Origin: an uncultured Planktomarina sp.
GTDB lineage: Bacteria; Pseudomonadota; Alphaproteobacteria; Rhodobacterales; Rhodobacteraceae
Length of the DNA stretch: 64,000 nucleotides
Assembly: GCA_943788425.1 (NCBI GenBank)
Contig: CALSQF010000006.1
Location: 186,001-250,000, forward strand
Direction: 5' to 3'
In this document: one piece after another, positions 8,892-19,157 of the stretch
How the letters are laid out: each line of letters begins with the position of its first letter
How positions within the stretch are numbered: the first letter of the stretch is position 1
Notes under the pieces: model-generated
The model's database searches: none
The model's input: only the letters and a program-made list of their open reading frames with translations
What the model was told of the DNA's origin: nothing
Position numbers and translations under genes: made by a program

Positions 8892-10039
8892 TGGAAGATT
8901 GGCACCATGGCGGGTTTGGACTTTATATCCATTGGCCATTTTGTGAAGCAAAATGCCCATATTGTGACTTTAATTCCTATGTCAACGCGGCGGTAGACAA
9001 CGATGTATGGGAAAAGGCTCTCCTGAGCGAACTGGATCGCCATGGGGTCCTTACCCGGGGTCGTCTGTTGAATTCAATTTTTTTCGGAGGGGGTACGCCA
9101 AGCTTGATGCCACCCAAAATGGTTGAGCGCCTGATTGATCGCGCGCGGGTGCATTGGTCTTTCGCAAATGATATTGAGATCACGCTTGAGGCCAATCCGT
9201 CCTCGGTTGAAGCCTCGCGCCTTGCTGATTTTCGCGCCGCCGGGGTGAGCCGTATATCCATGGGAATTCAGGCGCTAAACGATCCCGACTTGAAGCGCCT
9301 CGGTCGTTTGCACTCCGCGGCAGAGGCGCGATCCGCTCTCACTGTCGCGAAGACATATTTTGACCAGGTCAGTTTTGATTTGATCTATGCGCGGCAAGAT
9401 CAAACGCTTGAGGCCTGGCAAAAGGAGCTAAGCGAAGCCATAGATATGAGCGCGGGGCACCTATCTTTGTATCAACTTACAATTGAACCTGGAACGGCCT
9501 TTGGCTTTCGGGCGCAGGCAGGGAAATTGGCAGGGTTGCCCAATGAAGACTTAAGCGCTGATATGTTTGACGCAACCAATGAGATCTGCGCCAAAGCGGG
9601 TCTATACGCCTATGAAGTGTCCAATTATTCACACAAGTCATTGGAATCTAAACATAATAAAATTTATTGGCGCGGTGGCGATTATATCGGAATAGGGCCC
9701 GGGGCCCATGGCCGCTTGACCCTGTCAGGAAAACGCCACGCTACAAGAACAGTCCTAGCGCCCCAGACCTGGTTGGAACGGGTAGAGTTGCAAAAGAGCG
9801 GCACCAGTCACCAAGAAACATTAACCCCGCGAGATCACGCCAATGAGCTTATCATGATGGGATTACGAATATTAGATGGGATTTCTCGAACGCGCATTGA
9901 GAGCATCGCCAATGCGCCGCTCGATATTCCAAGTCACCTGCTGGACATGCGCCTGCTAGACCTCTCTGAAAATCAACTTCGCGCCACAAAATCCGGTCGC
10001 CCGCTTTTGAATCAACTGGTCCAAGCCCTGATGTATTAA
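8888..10039 (+). CDS. hemW: Radical SAM protein HemW (heme chaperone)
   Basis: The 383-residue protein has the radical SAM cysteine motif as CEAKCPYC near residue 20 in the setting YIHWPFCEAKCPYCDF, then GGGTPSLM and the EANPSS and GVSRISMGIQ motifs. HemW proteins were long called oxygen-independent coproporphyrinogen oxidases, but they lack the residues for that reaction and are known to bind and deliver heme. Lack of the extra N-terminal cysteine of HemN supports HemW. It starts inside the rdgB stop and converges on parB. Confidence 0.93.
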   Translation: MMEDWHHGGFGLYIHWPFCEAKCPYCDFNSYVNAAVDNDVWEKALLSELDRHGVLTRGRLLNSIFFGGGTPSLMPPKMVERLIDRARVHWSFANDIEITLEANPSSVEASRLADFRAAGVSRISMGIQALNDPDLKRLGRLHSAAEARSALTVAKTYFDQVSFDLIYARQDQTLEAWQKELSEAIDMSAGHLSLYQLTIEPGTAFGFRAQAGKLAGLPNEDLSADMFDATNEICAKAGLYAYEVSNYSHKSLESKHNKIYWRGGDYIGIGPGAHGRLTLSGKRHATRTVLAPQTWLERVELQKSGTSHQETLTPRDHANELIMMGLRILDGISRTRIESIANAPLDIPSHLLDMRLLDLSENQLRATKSGRPLLNQLVQALMY

Positions 10040-10926
10040 AGCCCTGCTAAGTGGCGACAAAGCTCATCGAGCTGCTCTAGATTTTTATAGCGGATGGTAA
10101 TCGAGCCGCCCTCTTGTCCCGGGTTATGCGTGATGGAGACCGCCATTTTAAGAGCTGCGGAAAGATCACCTTCAAGCGCACGCGTATCTGCGTCTTTGGC
10201 AGATTTTGGCATGCGGCCTTTGCTGGGCGCTTTCGGCTCTTTCACCAATTTTTCCGTCTGTCGAACAGACAACCCACGCGCCACAACAACACGCGCCAAA
10301 TCAGAGGCATTGTGCGCCGTAATCAATGCGCGGGCGTGACCACTTGACAGGCTGCCATTGATGACAAGAGCTTGAACATCTTTTGGAAGTGCCAGAAGGC
10401 GCAGAATATTTGCGATATGTGGACGCGATTTGCCAAGCGCTTCTGCCATCTGCTCTTGCGTATGACCAAATTTATCCATGAGCTGGCGATATCCAATCGC
10501 CTCTTCGATGGGGTTGAGGTCTGCGCGCTGGATATTTTCGATAATTGCGATCTCGAGAACGTCCGAATCAGAAAATTCCCGCACCACAATGGGCAATTCA
10601 TGTAGCTGGGCGAGCTGGGAGGCCCGCCACCGCCGTTCCCCCGCGACGATTTCATATTCGCCGGTTTTGTCTGGATGCGCACGCACGACCAGCGGCTGAA
10701 TAACACCCTTCGAACGAATTGACCCGGCAAGATCGTTTAATTCATCAACATCAAAATGCCGACGCGGTTGGTCCGGATTGGGGTGCACATTTTCGATCGG
10801 CACAAGCATATCACTGCGCCGCTCAGAGCTGCTGGGCCCTGTGTCACCGACTGTCTGTTCAATATCAGCCATCAGCGCCGATAGGCCCCGACCGAGACCT
10901 CTTTGGCGTTTGGGGGTATTGGCCAT
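10036..10926 (-). CDS. parB: Chromosome partitioning protein ParB
   Basis: ParB is a CTPase that binds parS, spreads on DNA and works with ParA to segregate the origin region. The 296-residue protein begins with the typical basic RQRGLGRGLSALM, then the CTP-binding region with GERRWRAS, the helix-turn-helix GHTQEQMAEALGKSRPHIANILRLL and SSGHARAL. The start at 10926 follows an AGGA six bases upstream; a longer reading to 11013 would run through parA. Two parS sites lie 1.4 and 3.3 kb upstream, within rsmG and mnmG. Confidence 0.96.
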   Translation of the reverse strand: MANTPKRQRGLGRGLSALMADIEQTVGDTGPSSSERRSDMLVPIENVHPNPDQPRRHFDVDELNDLAGSIRSKGVIQPLVVRAHPDKTGEYEIVAGERRWRASQLAQLHELPIVVREFSDSDVLEIAIIENIQRADLNPIEEAIGYRQLMDKFGHTQEQMAEALGKSRPHIANILRLLALPKDVQALVINGSLSSGHARALITAHNASDLARVVVARGLSVRQTEKLVKEPKAPSKGRMPKSAKDADTRALEGDLSAALKMAVSITHNPGQEGGSITIRYKNLEQLDELCRHLAGL

Positions 10927-10945
10927 TTTATATCCTAACTCTTTA

Positions 10946-11722
10946 TCATCTGCGTGCCAAAATTTCTTGTGCGAGGGCGCGATAGGCCTCTGCACCTTTG
11001 GATCGGCTATCATAACTCAACACGGGCATCGCAAAGGACGGCGCCTCGCTTATTCTCACGTTTCGCGGGATGACCGTTTTAAAAACCAATTCACCCAAGT
11101 TTTCCCGCGCATCCTCCTCGACCTGCAAGGATAGGCGATTGCGCGCGTCGTACATTGTCAGCACCACCCCTTCAATTCGAAGATCTGGGTTGCCAAGATC
11201 TCGCACCTCTCGCACGGACATTAACAATTGCGACAAACCCTCTAAAGCGAAAAATTCGCTTTGCAAAGGAATGATAAGGGCGTGGGCTGCAATCAAGGCG
11301 TTTACTGTTAGGACGTTGAGTGACGGCGGACAATCCAACAATATATAATCGTATTTTAACAGATCTGAGTTGCTCAAAACTTTACGCAACATCTCGCTTC
11401 GGTTTTTCGCGCTGGCCAATTCAATGTCCGCAGAGCTGAGATCTGTTGTCGATGGAACAAGGTCGATGTTTTCGATATCTGTTTTTTGAATAAACCGGGG
11501 CTCCACTTGGGTGCCGATCAAAACATCATAGGTTGTGAACGCGCGCGCATCCGCATGAGAGCCAAGCCCGGTTGACGCGTTTCCCTGGGGGTCAAGATCC
11601 ATAACCAGCACTTTAAAACCAGCTTCCGCGATTGCTGCTGCCAAATTTAGGGTTGTGGTTGTCTTCCCGACCCCACCTTTTTGATTGGCGATGGCGAATA
11701 TTTTTTGTTTAGGCTGCTGCAC
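10946..11722 (-). CDS. parA: Chromosome partitioning ATPase ParA
   Basis: A Walker-type ATPase that forms nucleoid gradients to move ParB-parS complexes. The 258-residue chromosomal-type protein has the deviant Walker A KGGVGKTTTT at residues about 15-24, the VMDLDPQGNAS motif and LLDCPPSLN Walker B. It has no N-terminal DNA-binding domain, unlike plasmid ParA proteins. It overlaps rsmG by 14 bases and is followed 19 bases later by parB. Confidence 0.97.
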   Translation of the reverse strand: MQQPKQKIFAIANQKGGVGKTTTTLNLAAAIAEAGFKVLVMDLDPQGNASTGLGSHADARAFTTYDVLIGTQVEPRFIQKTDIENIDLVPSTTDLSSADIELASAKNRSEMLRKVLSNSDLLKYDYILLDCPPSLNVLTVNALIAAHALIIPLQSEFFALEGLSQLLMSVREVRDLGNPDLRIEGVVLTMYDARNRLSLQVEEDARENLGELVFKTVIPRNVRISEAPSFAMPVLSYDSRSKGAEAYRALAQEILARR

Positions 11723-12332
11723 GTCGAATATTCCTGATTTTCAACACCGCTGCGTGAATGTCTGTCTGGCTCGGCACGATGTCGTGCTCAAATGACCATG
11801 ATTTTTGCGCCGCCACAAGTTCATCCTGATGACTTTGCCCCTTCATGAACAAACACACGCCGTCCGTTTCAACAAGAGTTTCTGCATATTCTAAAAGCTT
11901 GGGCAAAGCTGCGAGAGCACGCGCCGAAACGGTAGCGGCCCGAGCAAGGGTTAAAGATTCAACCCTAAAGCTGTGGATTTCACAATTTAACTCTAAAGTA
12001 GCCGCAGCCTGACGAAGGAAAGCGGCCTTTCGCAGGTCACTTTCAACCAATATAACGCAAGTGGAGGGAGAGATTTCTTTCAAACAAATCGCCACAACGA
12101 TGCCGGGAAACCCACCACCGCTGCCAATATCTATCCAACAATCAGACAGCTTCGCCAATGCGATGATTTGTGCCGAATCTTCAATATGACGGCTCCAGAT
12201 GTTTGAAATGCTGCCCTTTGCGATCAAGTTGATAACCGGATTCCACTTTTTAACGAGCGCAACGAACTCATTGAGCTGCGCCGTTGTTTCACGTGAAACA
12301 CTCAGGCTGGTGAGTTTTTCTTGCCTAGTCAT
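11709..12332 (-). CDS. rsmG: 16S rRNA (guanine-527-N7)-methyltransferase RsmG
   Basis: Methylates G527 of 16S rRNA using S-adenosylmethionine; the gene was formerly gidB. The 207-residue protein shows the SAM-binding motif WIDIGSGGGFPGI and the later SARALAALPKLLEYA stretch. Its N-terminal codons for SVSRETT (residues 11-17) are also a perfect parS site. It overlaps mnmG upstream by four bases and parA downstream by 14, so translation of the block is probably coupled. Confidence 0.96.
   Translation of the reverse strand: MTRQEKLTSLSVSRETTAQLNEFVALVKKWNPVINLIAKGSISNIWSRHIEDSAQIIALAKLSDCWIDIGSGGGFPGIVVAICLKEISPSTCVILVESDLRKAAFLRQAAATLELNCEIHSFRVESLTLARAATVSARALAALPKLLEYAETLVETDGVCLFMKGQSHQDELVAAQKSWSFEHDIVPSQTDIHAAVLKIRNIRRAAA
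12285..12300. promoter_or_regulatory. parS site 1 (ParB-binding), inside rsmG
   Basis: TGTTTCACGTGAAACA is a perfect 16-base palindrome identical to the broad bacterial parS consensus. It lies within codons 10-17 of rsmG, about 1.4 kb from parB and 5 kb from the candidate origin. Confidence 0.93.
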
Positions 12333-14188
12333 CCGGTATTTTTCAACCCTTTGGACTTGATACTTAACAAAACAGCCGTCAAAGCTGCCGGCGTCACCCC
12401 CTCGATATTCTTAGCGGCACCAAGCGACTCTGGACGCGCCGCGTTTAGTTTTGAAATCAGCTCAGACGACAAACCAGGAACCCCCACGTAATGAAAACTT
12501 TTTGGTATCTTAACGCTCAAATCCCGAGCTAAGGCATCAATATCGCGGCCCTGGCGCTCAATATAAGTTACATAGAGCGCCTCTCGTGCGGCCTGGACCA
12601 AAGACTCCGCATCACAATCAGCTAACCCTGGGGCCAGACTGGAAAGATTAGAAACCGTCACCCCGGGAATCGAAAGCAACTCATGCCCACTGCGACGACG
12701 CCCGTCGAGACCAAGATCTATTCCTGCCTTACGGGCTTGGTTGGGTGAAACAGCCATTGATGACAATAGGGCACGGCACTCGTCTAAATGCGTCATCTTT
12801 TCCCGATAGGCGCCAAACCTAGATTCCGACACGAGGCCGGACGTGTAACCTTGCTCGGTTAACCGCTGATCAGCGTTATCAGCGCGGAGCTTTAATCGAA
12901 ACTCCGCCCGTGATGTAAACATCCGATAAGGCTCAGTTGCGCCGCGTGTTATTAAATCGTCAATCATCACCCCAATATAGCTGGTACTACGATCAAATGT
13001 GATGGGCGACACGCCCTTAAGCCGCTTCGCAACACCAATGGCTGCAACTAAGCCTTGGGCTGCGGCCTCCTCATACCCTGTGGTTCCATTAATTTGGCCC
13101 GCCAAGAACAATCCACCCATCAAGCTTGATTCCAAATCACTTGATAAGCCTTGAGGATTAAGAAAATCATACTCTATGGCATAGCCCGGTTGTTGAATTT
13201 CAACATTCTCCAGCCCCACAATCGACCTGACATAGGCTTCTTGAACATCTTGCGGCAAAGACGACGAAATGCCGTTAGGATACACGCAATTTGTCGTAAG
13301 CCCTTCAGGCTCCAAAAACACTTGGTGGCTAGATTTATCGGCAAAGCGGGTTATTTTATCTTCAATAGAAGGGCAATACCGCGGCCCAATACCCTCTATA
13401 TGCCCGCCATACATTGCCGATTTATCAATATTTTCCCGAATAATATCATGGGTTTGGCTGTTTGTATGGGTGATGCCGCAGCTTACCTGCCGCACCGTTG
13501 GTCCTTTAGAAAGAAACGACAACATGACTGGATCAAAATCCGCAGGTTGAAGCTCCAACTGACGCCAATCAATGGTATCTCCATTCAGACGTGGTGGTGT
13601 ACCCGTTTTCAATCGGCCAAATACAGCGCCCAAAGATTCCATCTTCTGCGACAGCACGTCAGCCGCTTTTTCTCCCATGCGACCGGCAGAAACTCTTTTA
13701 TCGCCGATGTGTATAACGCCCCGCATGAAAGTCCCAGCAGTCAGAATAACCGTATGGGCAAGAATTTCTGAGCCATCAGCCAAACGAACACCTGTCACAG
13801 CGCCGCCACTTGACATTAGGTCCGCCGCCTCTCCTTCGATCAGTATATAGTCTTGTTTTGCCAGCAAGGCCTGTATCGCCTGTAAATACAGCTTTCGGTC
13901 TGATTGTGTCCGTGGGCCCTGTACAGCGGGGCCTTTGCTTCTATTAAGCAGACGAAATTGGATGCCAGACAAATCGGCTGCTGTGCCGATGATCCCATCA
14001 AGAGCATCAATCTCGCGAACCAAATGGCCCTTACCCAGCCCCCCAATTGCCGGGTTACATGACATCACGCCGACTTTGCTCTGATCCAAGGTCACAAGCG
14101 CAGCCCGCAAGCCATACCTGCAAACCGCATGAAGCGCTTCACAACCTGCGTGGCCTCCACCTACAATCACAACATCAAAATGTTTCAC
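12329..14188 (-). CDS. mnmG: tRNA uridine-34 carboxymethylaminomethyl modification enzyme MnmG
   Basis: With MnmE this FAD enzyme adds the carboxymethylaminomethyl group at wobble U34 of certain tRNAs. It has the dinucleotide-binding VVIVGGGHAGCEA motif at the N-terminus, the CNPAIGGLGKGHLVREIDALDG signature, the GTPPRL and GYEEAAAQG motifs and the C-terminal helical MnmE-binding part. I chose GTG at 14188 (619 residues), which begins right before the Rossmann motif. A TTG at 14218 inside the mnmE end is the alternative. The start lies in the second parS site. Confidence 0.93.
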   Translation of the reverse strand: MKHFDVVIVGGGHAGCEALHAVCRYGLRAALVTLDQSKVGVMSCNPAIGGLGKGHLVREIDALDGIIGTAADLSGIQFRLLNRSKGPAVQGPRTQSDRKLYLQAIQALLAKQDYILIEGEAADLMSSGGAVTGVRLADGSEILAHTVILTAGTFMRGVIHIGDKRVSAGRMGEKAADVLSQKMESLGAVFGRLKTGTPPRLNGDTIDWRQLELQPADFDPVMLSFLSKGPTVRQVSCGITHTNSQTHDIIRENIDKSAMYGGHIEGIGPRYCPSIEDKITRFADKSSHQVFLEPEGLTTNCVYPNGISSSLPQDVQEAYVRSIVGLENVEIQQPGYAIEYDFLNPQGLSSDLESSLMGGLFLAGQINGTTGYEEAAAQGLVAAIGVAKRLKGVSPITFDRSTSYIGVMIDDLITRGATEPYRMFTSRAEFRLKLRADNADQRLTEQGYTSGLVSESRFGAYREKMTHLDECRALLSSMAVSPNQARKAGIDLGLDGRRRSGHELLSIPGVTVSNLSSLAPGLADCDAESLVQAAREALYVTYIERQGRDIDALARDLSVKIPKSFHYVGVPGLSSELISKLNAARPESLGAAKNIEGVTPAALTAVLLSIKSKGLKNTG

Positions 14189-14196
14189 GTGAAACG
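14181..14196. promoter_or_regulatory. parS site 2 (ParB-binding, one mismatch), at the mnmG start
   Basis: TGTTTCACGTGAAACG differs from the perfect parS palindrome only at its last base. It covers the probable GTG start of mnmG and lies 1.9 kb from the first site. Confidence 0.85.
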
Positions 14197-14202
14197 CGCC
14201 CC

Positions 14203-15489
14203 CTACTTCCCCAAACAAAAGCTTGAAAAGATTTCATCCAACACAGATTCTATATCAATCCGACCAAAAACAAAATCCAATTCACTAAGTGCAAAATAGA
14301 GCTCCTGGCTGGCAAGCTCAAACGGCAGCGGGTCGGATTGGACAAGTGCCAAAACCCGCGCAAGAAAAGATTCTGCCGAGCGCAACCCAGTGATTTGCCG
14401 TTCTCGAATGGCAACCACATCCGTTGGCGTTTTCACCGCTAATCGTTCAGCAATTAGGTTCAATAGCTCTGATACGCCTTGACCGGTTTTCCCAGAGATC
14501 GCCTCGAAATCAAAACCACGCTCATCTCCCTTATTCAGCCGAACAATATCACCATCGCGCATTGTAATCGGAAGAGGCTCTCCTTCCTCTTCTATCAGAA
14601 ACACACGAATATCAGCAACATCCGCCATTTCGTAGGCCTTTGAAATACCTAGTTTTTCTATCTCATCTTTAGAGTCGCGCAAACCCGCTGTATCCAAGAA
14701 GCTCACCGCAAGCCCCTGCAAATCCACCCGACACTCAATGACATCTCGCGTCGTTCCAGCCACATCTGAAGTTATCGCGGCCTGTCGCCCTACAATAGAG
14801 TTGAGCAAAGTGGATTTACCAACATTCGGCGCACCAATAATCGCAACCGTAAAACCAGTGCGAATTTTAGCCGCCACAGTAGATCGCTCCAAAATAGCAG
14901 AAATAGAAGCGTGCGTTTCTTCGACCAACTGGATCACCTCAATAGAAAGATCATCCGGAATTTCTTCATCCGAAAAGTCGATGCTGGCCTCTAAAAGAGC
15001 CACTGCGCGCAACAGCTTGCCACGCCACCGCTCTCCAGCATCCCCGAAACTTCCATCCAAGACACGAATAGCCTGCTGACGCTGCGATTCGGTTTCAGCG
15101 TCAATTAAGTCCGATAATGCCTCGACCTGATTAAGATCTAGCTGACCATTTTCAAGCGCGCGGCGGGTAAACTCTCCAGGCCCTGCCAGACGACAGCCCT
15201 TCTGTGCCGAAAGCTCCGACAACAGTCGCGCTACAGTGGCCAACCCACCGTGAACTTGAAACTCAACGACACGTTCCCCTGTAAAGCTCGCACCATTCTC
15301 AAAACAAAGCACAACTGCACGGTCTATAAGCGCCCCATCACAACCTCGAACCGCCCGCAAACCGGTGCGGCCTACATCAGGCAGGTCGCAAAATACTGAC
15401 GCAATATCAAAAGCTTGGGGCCCTGATACACGAATAACAGAGACCCCTGCCCGGCCCGTCGCTGTTGCCTGCGCAAAAATAGTGTCCAT
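14203..15489 (-). CDS. mnmE: tRNA modification GTPase MnmE
   Basis: Partner of MnmG in wobble-uridine modification. The 428-residue protein has the N-terminal formyl-THF-binding domain (MDTIFAQATATGRAGVSVIRVSG region, PGEFTRRA), then an inserted G domain with GAPNVGKST, TTRDVIE, DTAGLRDS and NKGD, and the C-terminal catalytic Cys motif CLGK at the very end. I chose ATG at 15489, which gives the usual MDTIFA start; a GTG at 15498 directly after the rho stop is possible. It follows rho by nine bases. Confidence 0.95.
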   Translation of the reverse strand: MDTIFAQATATGRAGVSVIRVSGPQAFDIASVFCDLPDVGRTGLRAVRGCDGALIDRAVVLCFENGASFTGERVVEFQVHGGLATVARLLSELSAQKGCRLAGPGEFTRRALENGQLDLNQVEALSDLIDAETESQRQQAIRVLDGSFGDAGERWRGKLLRAVALLEASIDFSDEEIPDDLSIEVIQLVEETHASISAILERSTVAAKIRTGFTVAIIGAPNVGKSTLLNSIVGRQAAITSDVAGTTRDVIECRVDLQGLAVSFLDTAGLRDSKDEIEKLGISKAYEMADVADIRVFLIEEEGEPLPITMRDGDIVRLNKGDERGFDFEAISGKTGQGVSELLNLIAERLAVKTPTDVVAIRERQITGLRSAESFLARVLALVQSDPLPFELASQELYFALSELDFVFGRIDIESVLDEIFSSFCLGK

Positions 15490-15498
15490 CACAGACAC

Positions 15499-16770
15499 TT
15501 AGGTGTTCATAGAATCAAAGAATTCCGAATTAGATTTCGTCTGTTTCAACTTAGAAATCAGGAATTCAATCGCATCTGTCGTTCCCATCGGGTTCAAAAT
15601 CCGCCTCAACACATAGGTTTTTTGCAAATCGACTTTATCGACCAGTAAATCTTCCTTACGCGTACCTGATTTCAAAACATCCATTGCCGGGAACACCCGC
15701 TTGTCAGCTACTTTGCGATCCAAAACAATTTCGGAGTTGCCAGTACCTTTGAATTCCTCAAAAATAACTTCATCCATGCGGCTGCCAGTATCAATCAAAG
15801 CTGTCGCAATAATGGTCAAAGAGCCGCCCTCTTCGATATTTCGAGCCGCCCCAAAAAAGCGCTTTGGCCGCTGCAAAGCATTCGCATCCACACCTCCGGT
15901 CAAGACTTTACCTGATGAAGGCACAACCGTGTTAAACGCCCGACCCAATCGAGTAATTGAATCCAACAAGATGACAACATCACGTTTGTGCTCAACCAAA
16001 CGTTTTGCTTTTTCAATCACCATTTCAGACACAGCAACGTGACGCGTCGCAGGCTCATCAAAGGTAGAGCTCACAACCTCACCCTTCACGGACCGCTGCA
16101 TATCGGTCACCTCTTCCGGCCGCTCATCAATCAATAGAACAATCAAATAACATTCCGGATGGTTTCGTTCTATCGAATTGGCAATGTTTTGTAATAAAAC
16201 AGTTTTACCCGTGCGTGGCGGCGCAACGATCAAAGACCTCTGACCTTTACCAATCGGCGCAACCAAGTCAATAATCCGTGCCGAACGATCCTTCGTTGTT
16301 GGGTCTTCGAGCTCCATATTTAACCGCTCATCCGGATAAAGCGGCGTCAGGTTTTCAAATGCCACCTTATGACGTGCATGTTCTGGGTTCTCAAAGTTGA
16401 TTTTCTCAACCTTAGTCATACCAAAATAACGCTCAGTATCCTCTGGCGCCTTAATGATACCCTCAATGGTATCCCCGGTTCGTAGTGAAAACTGCCGGAT
16501 CATTTCCGGTGAAACATAAATATCGTCTGGACCCGGCAGATAATTTGCCTCGGGTGACCGCAAGAAACCAAAACCGTCTTGAAGCACTTCTAAGACCCCA
16601 TCGCCGGAAATCTCTGCGCCGTCTTCCGCACGCTCTTTTAAAATCGAGAACATCATATCGCCCTTTCGCATGGTAGAGGCGTTCTCAATTTCCAGTTCCT
16701 CTGCCATAGAAAGCAGATCTTTTGGGCTTTTTGCCTTTAATTCGGCCAAAGTCACACGGTTACTTGTCAT
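15499..16770 (-). CDS. rho: Transcription termination factor Rho
   Basis: A hexameric RNA helicase that ends untranslated transcripts. The 423-residue protein has the N-terminal domain ([23 protein letters not shown]), the cold-shock-like RNA-binding [17 protein letters not shown] region, Walker A (VAPPRTGKT), the [14 protein letters not shown] Walker B region and the Q/R-loop [16 protein letters not shown] at 16770 follows a GGAAGAGA Shine-Dalgarno; an upstream in-frame start at 16788 is less likely. No unusual insertion is present. Confidence 0.97.
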
Positions 16771-16893
16771 GGAGTCTCTTCCTGCCAAAGGTTCCCCTAG
16801 GCACCACAGATGTTATTAAGAAAAAGCGATCCCGGACGGGCGCACCCTCTCGTTACTTAAAAGCAAAGGATGAGTCAAATATTACAGGCTTAT

Positions 16894-17346
16894 TCAAAAT
16901 GGACGAACCACAACCATAATAACGATTGCCAACAACAAGACTGTCGGCACTTCATTCATTATTCTGTAAGTTTTGCCAGTCAGCTGATTGTCACCCAGCT
17001 CGAAACCTCTTTGCCGTTTGGCTAACCAAAAATGAAACCATGTCATAGCTATAATGGAAATTAGTTTAACCCAAGGCCAGACGTCCGACCAATCTAACAC
17101 TCCAGGTATCACCGCCAAAGACAGCCCAAAACCCCAAGTCGCGAACATAGCAGGCGTCATAATGACCTTTAACAATTTTGATTCCATCATAGAAAACAAA
17201 CGATCAGTCTGAGAATAAACCTCTACTTTTTCGCTATGATGTACAAAAAGGCGTGGCAGATAAAAAATTCCAGCCATCCAGGAAATTACCGAAATTATAT
17301 GGCCAGCTTTCAACCATGGGTACATCGCAACTAAGTAATCTATCAT
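16894..17346 (-). CDS. hemJ: Protoporphyrinogen IX oxidase HemJ (CopD/YNL/HemJ family)
   Basis: An inner-membrane protein that oxidises protoporphyrinogen IX in heme and bacteriochlorophyll synthesis. The 150-residue protein has four hydrophobic segments and the conserved WMAGIFYLPRLFVHH motif at about residues 23-37, whose His and Arg are typical of HemJ. It lies about 120 bases upstream of rho in the same direction and borders the candidate origin. In many relatives hemE is next to this gene near the origin; it is absent here. Confidence 0.92.
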   Translation of the reverse strand: MIDYLVAMYPWLKAGHIISVISWMAGIFYLPRLFVHHSEKVEVYSQTDRLFSMMESKLLKVIMTPAMFATWGFGLSLAVIPGVLDWSDVWPWVKLISIIAMTWFHFWLAKRQRGFELGDNQLTGKTYRIMNEVPTVLLLAIVIMVVVRPF

Positions 17347-17741
17347 TTCACGGTACCTTCTCCACTTTATAATAATAATAATATTAGATGATTTTAGTAG
17401 AGAGATGTAGTGCTGGTGAATTCTGTGGATTAAATTTTATCTATGTGTTTATGAACAGGTGGATAAAAACAACAACAAAAACACAACATGAAAATTATTT
17501 ATATAAAAACAAGAGCTTAAAAAATATACATGTGTATAATCCTGTTGATTAAAGCCATTAAACATACCAAAGAAAAAATTATCATCAGCAAAGAATTTTC
17601 CATATCCACAGAAGATAAATTCACTGAGAGATTCTAAATTTGAATGAAACTCAGTAAGAATTCTTGTATTTGCAAAAGACCACGATTACCCCCACAGTTC
17701 AGTCACAGGTCACAGCAAACATATCCACAGGTTTATCTTAC
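17347..17741. other. Candidate chromosomal origin of replication (oriC)
   Basis: A 395-base, very AT-rich gap between the divergent hemJ and maf-aroE genes. It has one perfect DnaA box, TTATACACA (minus strand, 17531-17539), and four close ones: TAATCCACA (minus, 17424-17432), TTATCCACC (minus, 17458-17466), ATATCCACA (plus, 17602-17610) and ATATCCACA (plus, 17721-17729). AT-only tracts around 17368-17400 and 17490-17530 could be the unwinding element. The flanks (hemJ-rho-mnmE-mnmG-rsmG-parA-parB on one side, maf on the other) match the known alphaproteobacterial origin neighbourhood, and two parS sites lie within 5.5 kb. Confidence 0.82.
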
Positions 17742-19157
17742 ATGGATCTTATCCTCGCGTCTCAATCTGCCACGCGCCGCCGCATTTTAAACTCGGCACG
17801 AATGAGTGCTCGGTTTATGTCACCACAGATTGATGAAGAAAATATTACGAAATCTTTGAGCGCAGAGCAGGCCGCGCCGCGCGACATTGCCGATACTTTA
17901 GCAGAACATAAAGCACTAAAAATATCTCGAAAGAATCTAGACTGTTGGGTGATTGGCTGTGATCAAATATTGGTCTTTGAAGGAGAAATATTTGGAAAGC
18001 CCGCCTCTCGTGAAGCGCTAAAAGACTCTCTATCTCGCCTTTCTGGACAAACGCATAGATTGATAACTGCCAATGTTATTTACAAGGATTGCAAACCTCA
18101 GTGGCGACATATCGCTATCAGCTATATGTCGATGCGGTCCATGAGTGCGGCTGAAATAGACGCTTACGTTGCAACATATTGGCAGGAGGTGAAACAAGCC
18201 GCGGGCGGCTATCACTTCGAAAGAACACCAGATCTCTTTTTTGCTGTTCGAGGTAATTGGTTTGACATCATGGGGCTTTCGATCGGGCCAATCATAGGGT
18301 TTTTAAATCAAATCGACACAAATAACCCATACCAAAATCCGAAACTTGCGGCTGTTTTGGGTCATCCGATTGCTCAAAGTAAGTCACCTCGGATACACGG
18401 GCACTGGCTTGAAAAAAATGGCATATCAGGGGATTATATCGCGATAGATATTCCCCCTGCGCATTTTAATGACACTCTAAATATGCTCTTTGACGTTGGA
18501 TTCTCAGGATTTAATGTCACCATTCCGCATAAGGAACAAGCATTGGCATTCGCCGATCACATGAGCCCGAGAGCGCAACGCATAGGCGCAGCCAATACAC
18601 TGATAAAAACGGACATCGGTGATATTCGTGCAGATAATACAGATGGTTACGGCTTCATAACCAACCTATCCACGCAAAGTGAGACCTGGCAACCGAAGGC
18701 TGGCCCTGCTTTGGTTTTGGGAGCAGGTGGCGCTGCGCGAGCGATTTTGGTTGCCCTTTTGGACGTGGGCGTCCCAAAAATCTATCTTTCCAATCGGACC
18801 CGTGCCCGCGCTGATGACCTGGCCGCTGAAATATCTGACCTTATTGAAGTGATTGATTGGCAGGATAAAGAAGATGTTTTACCAGAGGCGTTCACCGTGG
18901 TGAACAGCACCTCTCTTGGTATGACGGGCAAAGCGGCTCTAGATTTTGACTTGACCGACATAAACCCACATGCACTCGTAACAGATCTCATTTACGCGCC
19001 TTTAGAAACCCAGCTCTTAAAAGACGCGCGTGGACGTGGATGTGAAGTGGTGGGCGGAATTGGTATGTTACTGCATCAAGCTGTGCCTGGTTTTGAAGCT
19101 TGGTTTGGCACCCGGCCCGAGGTGGATCAAGAGCTAGAGGCGTTGATGCTTACATGA
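17742..19157 (+). CDS. Fused Maf-family nucleotide pyrophosphatase and shikimate dehydrogenase (Maf-AroE)
   Basis: One uninterrupted 471-residue frame holds two enzymes. Residues 1-190 are a Maf nucleoside-triphosphate pyrophosphatase: SQSATRRRIL at 8-16, the catalytic GCDQ at 72-75 and the KP of the base-binding loop at 86-87. Residues about 201-471 are shikimate dehydrogenase: SKSPRIHG at 213-220, Lys264 in NVTIPHK, Asp301 in DNTDG, and the NADP-binding GAGGAARA at 327-334 followed by NRTRARA. The linker is about ten residues and contains no start codon. In relatives I know, maf and aroE are adjacent separate genes, so a lost stop is the likely origin. The stop overlaps the coaE start. ATG at 17742 fits the Maf N-terminus. 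Confidence 0.92.
   Translation: MDLILASQSATRRRILNSARMSARFMSPQIDEENITKSLSAEQAAPRDIADTLAEHKALKISRKNLDCWVIGCDQILVFEGEIFGKPASREALKDSLSRLSGQTHRLITANVIYKDCKPQWRHIAISYMSMRSMSAAEIDAYVATYWQEVKQAAGGYHFERTPDLFFAVRGNWFDIMGLSIGPIIGFLNQIDTNNPYQNPKLAAVLGHPIAQSKSPRIHGHWLEKNGISGDYIAIDIPPAHFNDTLNMLFDVGFSGFNVTIPHKEQALAFADHMSPRAQRIGAANTLIKTDIGDIRADNTDGYGFITNLSTQSETWQPKAGPALVLGAGGAARAILVALLDVGVPKIYLSNRTRARADDLAAEISDLIEVIDWQDKEDVLPEAFTVVNSTSLGMTGKAALDFDLTDINPHALVTDLIYAPLETQLLKDARGRGCEVVGGIGMLLHQAVPGFEAWFGTRPEVDQELEALMLT

Follow-up and report, generated by a model that had tools for sequence, protein, structure and literature searches.

A known type of alphaproteobacterial replication origin (oriC) lies in the hemE-maf neighbourhood; in the wider relatives compared in the present study, the order is rho, hemJ, hemE, a gap with DnaA boxes, maf, aroE, and coaE. 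We take Caulobacter Cori to be the named example of this neighbourhood. According to published studies, parAB is near ori in almost all of 179 closed alphaproteobacterial genomes (PMC8116508), and the origins of Rhodobacter sphaeroides were placed by skew and OriFinder (PMC6315104). In E. coli, a published account describes an AT-rich unwinding element beside the boxes of oriC and an IHF site among the boxes (PMC10380432). In a published survey, the spacer that separates the DnaA box from the DnaA-trios is most often 13 bp, and the trio found most often is 3'-GAT-5' (PMC8287927).

In the present study, we analyzed a window of 64,000 nucleotides (the whole stretch C6:186001-250000) from an uncultured Planktomarina sp.; the assembly has 2,543,630 bp in 19 contigs and is 93% complete, and contig C6 has 551,605 bp. 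A sequence-only reading of this window had proposed that an AT-rich gap of 395 bp between two divergent genes, hemJ and maf, is oriC. The coordinates of the gap proved exact, with the ATG of hemJ at 17346 (minus strand) and that of maf at 17742 (plus strand), and its GC content is 0.301; the genes run outward from it, seven to the left and three to the right (Table 1). The proposal is strongly supported by the minimum of the GC skew, a cluster of DnaA boxes, nearby parS sites, and neighbours that are kept in relatives, where the AT valleys, a TAG-box joint, and the boxes recur as well. Thus, the hemJ-maf gap (17347-17741) is almost certainly the chromosomal replication origin. As in the hemE-maf type, hemJ and rho are on one side, maf, aroE, and coaE are on the other, and parAB is close; however, hemE is gone from the border. 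The bacterial oriC is a well-known type of element, and the useful addition is its location here and its conserved inner layout. Among the papers listed in a literature search of mainly open-access articles, no title or abstract shown dealt with a hemJ-maf origin in Planktomarina, and a search for hemJ together with oriC found no paper.

Table 1. Features of the hemJ-maf gap and its neighbourhood (positions in the window)
Feature	Position	Strand	Basis or remark
oriC (assignment almost certain), intergenic gap hemJ/maf	17347-17741		skew minimum, best box window of contig, kept in relatives
hemJ, left border of oriC	16894-17346	-	TIGR00701
maf-aroE fusion gene, right border of oriC	17742-19157	+	one open frame
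Candidate DNA unwinding element, GC 0.15, hemJ side	17367-17406		AT valley kept in GC-rich relatives; putative function
TAG-N13-TGTGGATTA joint: TAG, 13-bp spacer, R1-like box 17424-17432 (-)	17408-17432	+	
DnaA box, 1 mismatch, R1-like, part of joint	17424-17432	-	consensus scan
DnaA box, 1 mismatch (TTATGAACA)	17449-17457	+	consensus scan
DnaA box, 1 mismatch (TTATCCACC)	17458-17466	-	consensus scan
IHF-like site (AAACAAGAGCTTA, 1 mismatch), central AT valley	17507-17519	+	weak motif, putative
DnaA box, perfect (TTATACACA)	17531-17539	-	consensus scan
DnaA box, 1 mismatch (ATATCCACA)	17602-17610	+	consensus scan
DnaA box, 1 mismatch (ATATCCACA), maf side	17721-17729	+	consensus scan
parS, perfect 16-bp palindrome	12285-12300		5,047 bp from gap
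parS, one mismatch	14181-14196		3,151 bp from gap
parB	10036-11013	-	TIGR00180
parA	10946-11722	-	ParA/MinD-type ATPase models, those shown all sub-cut-off; adjoins parB
rsmG	11709-12332	-	TIGR00138
mnmG	12329-14218	-	TIGR00136
mnmE	14203-15498	-	NF003661
rho	15499-16788	-	TIGR00767

A check named by the earlier reading was the cumulative GC skew of the chromosome, which we computed over the whole of contig C6 rather than over a closed chromosome. The minimum was found at C6:203794, which corresponds to position 17794 of the window, at a distance of 53 bp from the gap on the maf side. The 20-kb bins up to C6:220000, 11 in number, were all negative. Beyond that point, 14 of 17 bins were positive, the exceptions (280001, 320001, and 540001) being slightly negative (-0.002, -0.002, and -0.028). 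The keto (GT) skew had its minimum at window 29856, 12 kb to the right of that of the GC skew. Between 17 and 30 kb the curve of the GC skew is shallow, so that the resolution of skew by itself is about 10 kb; the divergent orientation of the genes also contributes to the local skew. In assigning the origin to the hemJ-maf gap, we therefore rely on the boxes and the relatives as well.

In a complete one-contig genome of the same genus (G011, 3,288,122 bp), sampled as 40 stretches of 20 kb (800 kb), the skew turns at or near the same hemJ-maf gap. All 18 stretches from 1,732,501 to 3,135,001 were negative and 21 of the 22 others were positive (the negative one on the rising side was 742501), with the peak of the cumulative skew near 1.69 Mb. 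The turn falls between the 3,135,001 stretch and the stretch that holds the gap, the sampling having excluded 3,155,001-3,212,000. In the gap-holding stretch, the first 3 kb were positive before the dip, and the local minimum at 3,220,183 was within maf-aroE (3,219,631-3,221,043), 861 bp from the gap.

In many bacteria dnaA adjoins oriC, and an origin beside dnaA is often assumed when chromosomes are numbered from this gene. Here, dnaA is located at C6:141770-142255, 61 kb to the left of the gap, and its reading frame is full length (451 aa); in G011, dnaA is at base 422, approximately 68 kb from the gap. A paper that compares the genus Algirhabdus with Planktomarina refers to 'the dnaA origin of replication', located with Ori-Finder 2 and by plotting the skew (PMC11943960). 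A coarse skew plot would not resolve a distance of 61-68 kb, which is about 2% of a chromosome. However, the cumulative skew of C6 keeps falling past dnaA, from -6064 to -7102 over C6:160001-180000, and both good parS sites are by the hemJ-maf gap. The earlier reading had also called for a search for another gap with denser boxes next to dnaA or hemE; the 7 kb around dnaA contain three scattered boxes, each with one mismatch, and the 6.5 kb around hemE contain two. An origin beside dnaA is thus very unlikely.

With up to one mismatch to TTATNCACA allowed, the hemJ-maf gap contains six DnaA boxes, one perfect and five with one mismatch, in both orientations. The perfect box previously read at 17531-17539 is present, on the minus strand; as for the near matches, which had been given as four in both orientations, the orientations were correct and the number was not, since there are five. 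Dinucleotide shuffles of the gap had a mean of 1.11 boxes, and none of 100 reached six. Among all 551,211 positions of a 395-bp window on the contig, at least four boxes were found only around the gap, and the next best non-overlapping windows had three. The signal is the cluster of boxes, because the 64-kb window as a whole is not enriched (42 boxes vs 41.6 expected). The boxes here are of the TTATNCACA kind, whereas the G-boxes of Caulobacter are TGATCCACA (PMC4285127). Furthermore, no CtrA site (TTAA-N7-TTAA), as expected for CtrA control of the Caulobacter type, was found in the gap; it has one GANTC site.

We also searched the whole 2.54-Mb assembly for the parS pattern TGTTTCACGTGAAACA with up to two mismatches. 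At up to one mismatch there are two sites, both near the gap and beside parAB, in agreement with the earlier statement that two parS sites lie within 5.5 kb; in a random sequence of the length of the assembly, 0.0006 perfect and 0.03 one-mismatch sites are expected by chance. At up to two mismatches there are three (the third, with two mismatches, is on contig C12), and the reversed-pattern control also gave 3, so the number at this threshold has no evidential value; we place the weight on the first two sites. parAB itself is 5.6-7.3 kb from the gap. The list of neighbouring genes held for rho, mnmE, mnmG, rsmG, and parB, which pass curated HMM cut-offs, and parA was assigned by sub-cut-off matches together with its position.

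As a correction to the earlier reading, the genes maf and aroE are fused in one open frame (the product of aroE being shikimate dehydrogenase). A joined match was found in 17 of 20 genomes of the genus, including that of the present organism, and in two of the 17 there is a break late in aroE; of the remaining three, two have no match and one has only a Maf paralogue. Outside the genus, Maf and AroE are two separate matches wherever both occur at one place. A literature search for a Maf-AroE fusion found no paper.

To this locus we compared 90 related loci, 17 from the genus (collected via maf-aroE) and 73 collected via hemJ similarity, most of them from Rhodobacteraceae, with flanks of approximately 1.5 kb in the former group and at most 4 kb in the latter. 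hemJ is present in all 90 and maf in 89 (it is absent in L110), so both genes border a gap in 89 of the 90. These 89 gaps represent 78 distinct sequences, and some of the loci represent the same species. The gap is 350-444 bp in 85 of the 89; the other lengths are 268, 320, 1265, and 1272 bp, the last two in L129 and L131. The related gaps contain a median of 4 boxes at up to one mismatch (shuffle mean, 0.52), and in 78 of the 89 at most five of 100 shuffles reach the observed count. Three of the 89 (L088, L120, and L128) have no box at one mismatch. In these three and in L043/L072 (one sequence), matches to this box consensus or to the TAG-N13 joint are weak or lacking, and the DnaA boxes of these gaps may differ.

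These comparisons bear also on whether the gap might be no more than the promoter region of the divergent genes hemJ and maf, in which the DnaA boxes serve transcription control. The two genes do diverge from it, and AT-rich and TAG blocks 20-65 bp from hemJ could, judging from position only, overlap a hemJ promoter. However, the skew minimum, the nearby parS sites, the length of 350-444 bp kept in nearly all of the related gaps, and the six clustered boxes exceed the needs of a promoter, and this explanation is extremely improbable. Promoter and origin roles may coexist in the gap.

The absence of hemE from the border, already pointed out in the sequence-only reading, was borne out: hemE is at C6:269235-270257, 65.7 kb to the right of the gap, and no hemE match was found in the 90 related loci within the flanks covered. 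We therefore turn to a wider comparison of 11 loci from genomes hand-picked among 61, four of the same family and seven of the same class. In seven of the 11 (six of the seven same-class loci and L184 of the same family), hemE is at the hemJ side of a box-bearing gap; these gaps have two to seven boxes and are 429-3,287 bp long, a length that may include other genes. hemE was not found at the border in L182 or in L177, L178, and L179 of the same family, and the genomes of the latter three carry it elsewhere.

Such an arrangement in the wider relatives could suggest that replication starts at hemE in its new place, 66 kb to the right of the gap, and one perfect box is indeed present at C6:269190, just upstream of hemE. 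However, this is one of only two boxes in 6.5 kb, and the skew is already positive there (0.045 in bin C6:260001). Furthermore, hemE of these wider relatives is joined to this very hemJ-maf locus, an indication that it was hemE that moved. We consider an origin at hemE to be highly improbable; on skew and box density, both dnaA and hemE were rejected as sites of the origin. The simplest reading of the gene orders is that hemE probably left the border within this family (Rhodobacteraceae) while the origin stayed in the hemJ-maf gap, so its absence would reflect a changed neighbour and not a changed origin.

With regard to the inner layout of the gap, the AT valley on the hemJ side (Table 1) is accompanied by a second one at 17487-17526, also with a GC content of 0.15, and the lowest 50-mer of the gap starts at 17491 (GC 0.14). 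When the GC profiles of 33 GC-rich gaps of the relatives are combined into a mean, the 40-mers with the lowest GC start 20-40 and 160-180 bp from hemJ; gap by gap, the lowest 40-mer starts at 9-38 in 24 of the 33 and at 133-182 in the other nine. Boxes concentrate 60-140, 180-260, and 380-420 bp from hemJ (74 distinct gaps of 330-450 bp, of the 78). Composition alone leaves the melting valley undecided, because both valleys are equally AT-rich and the lowest 50-mer is central. The hemJ-side valley is probably the unwinding element, and we prefer it because it flanks the first box array.

Between this valley and the first box is TAG-N13-TGTGGAT (17408-17430), the sole copy on either strand of the contig. 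Among the 78 distinct gaps, TAG is at a spacing of exactly 13 in 33, and each other spacing from 5 to 21 is found in at most 11; when one mismatch in TGTGGAT is allowed, 42 of the 78 have the joint (first 160 bp). GTAG occurs at that distance in 35 of the 59 gaps with TGTGGAT in the first 220 bp, compared with 0.28 (maximum 3) after shuffling of the upstream bases, the gaps being related to one another so that these counts give no independent probability. In E. coli K-12, the same TAG-N13-TGTGGAT is next to a perfect DnaA box in the annotated oriC, where boxes are likewise in both orientations; this perfect box is presumably R1. The neighbours there are different, namely mnmG and mioC. The joint also resembles the basal unwinding system (BUS) with DnaA-trios of B. 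subtilis and H. pylori in having TAG (3'-GAT-5') at the 13-bp spacer, if the polarity of the BUS trio relative to the box is as we assume in this match. However, there is no run of three in-register trios at this joint. The published three-trio rule (three or more trios with A in the middle, no farther than 16 bp from a DnaA box) proved unspecific here, and we do not claim it: 55 of the 89 gaps fitted, compared with 12.5 in mononucleotide shuffles, but 52 fitted on the wrong side of the boxes, which served as the control. The doubled motif TAGTAG, at up to 16 bp from a box, was found in 10 of the 89 on the right side and in none on the wrong side.

One possible explanation of the joint is that a TAG placed precisely 13 bp from an R1-like box constitutes an ancestral minimal trigger of unwinding, common to the family and E. 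coli, in which one trio suffices without a run. Beyond the family, the joint is mostly absent: in the wider loci, an exact box with TAG at 12-14 bp was found in two of the four same-family loci (spacings of 13 and 14) and in one of the seven same-class loci (14). We regard an ancestral trigger as rather unlikely, because only this one of the seven loci from other families has TAG at 12-14 bp, and there at 14.

The central AT valley contains an IHF-like site, found with WATCAANNNNTTR, which we assume to be the IHF consensus. Such a site (up to one mismatch, plus strand, 140-200 bp from hemJ) is present in 33 of 74 gaps, compared with 7.6 in local shuffles (maximum 14), the motif being weak; on the opposite strand there were 7. 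Perfect sites numbered 8, compared with 0.37 in shuffles. In the control, E. coli oriC, the scan at one mismatch found no site; the parallel with the IHF site of E. coli is thus one of position and recurrence. Given this miss in the control, we treat the IHF-like site as a lead. The genome carries three HU/IHF-family genes.

The layout is that of a DnaA-type origin, with its unwinding element probably on the hemJ side. By analogy with E. coli and B. subtilis, the product of dnaA, a gene at a distance of 61 kb, would bind the boxes at 17424-17466, 17531-17610, and 17721-17729, and a protein of the IHF type may introduce a bend into the AT-rich middle at approximately 17507. A DnaA filament that starts from the hemJ-proximal R1-like box (17424-17432) would first meet the TAG 13 bp from this box and open the AT stretch at approximately 17367-17410, if it grows in that direction, and the helicase would load at the opened stretch. 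Two forks would then depart, one over hemJ, rho, and parAB and the other over maf-aroE, coaE, and dnaQ, while ParB, bound to the two parS sites 3-5 kb away, would separate the new origins.

Our results locate the origin of a marine roseobacter in a gap of 395 bp that is 61 kb away from dnaA, and offer a reason why hemE, the usual marker of the origin, is absent at this gap. Through the relatives, a single origin of approximately 400 bp is available in 78 distinct natural forms, and the parts common to these forms, namely the AT flank, the TAG-N13-box joint, the box arrays, and the central AT valley, are directly testable.
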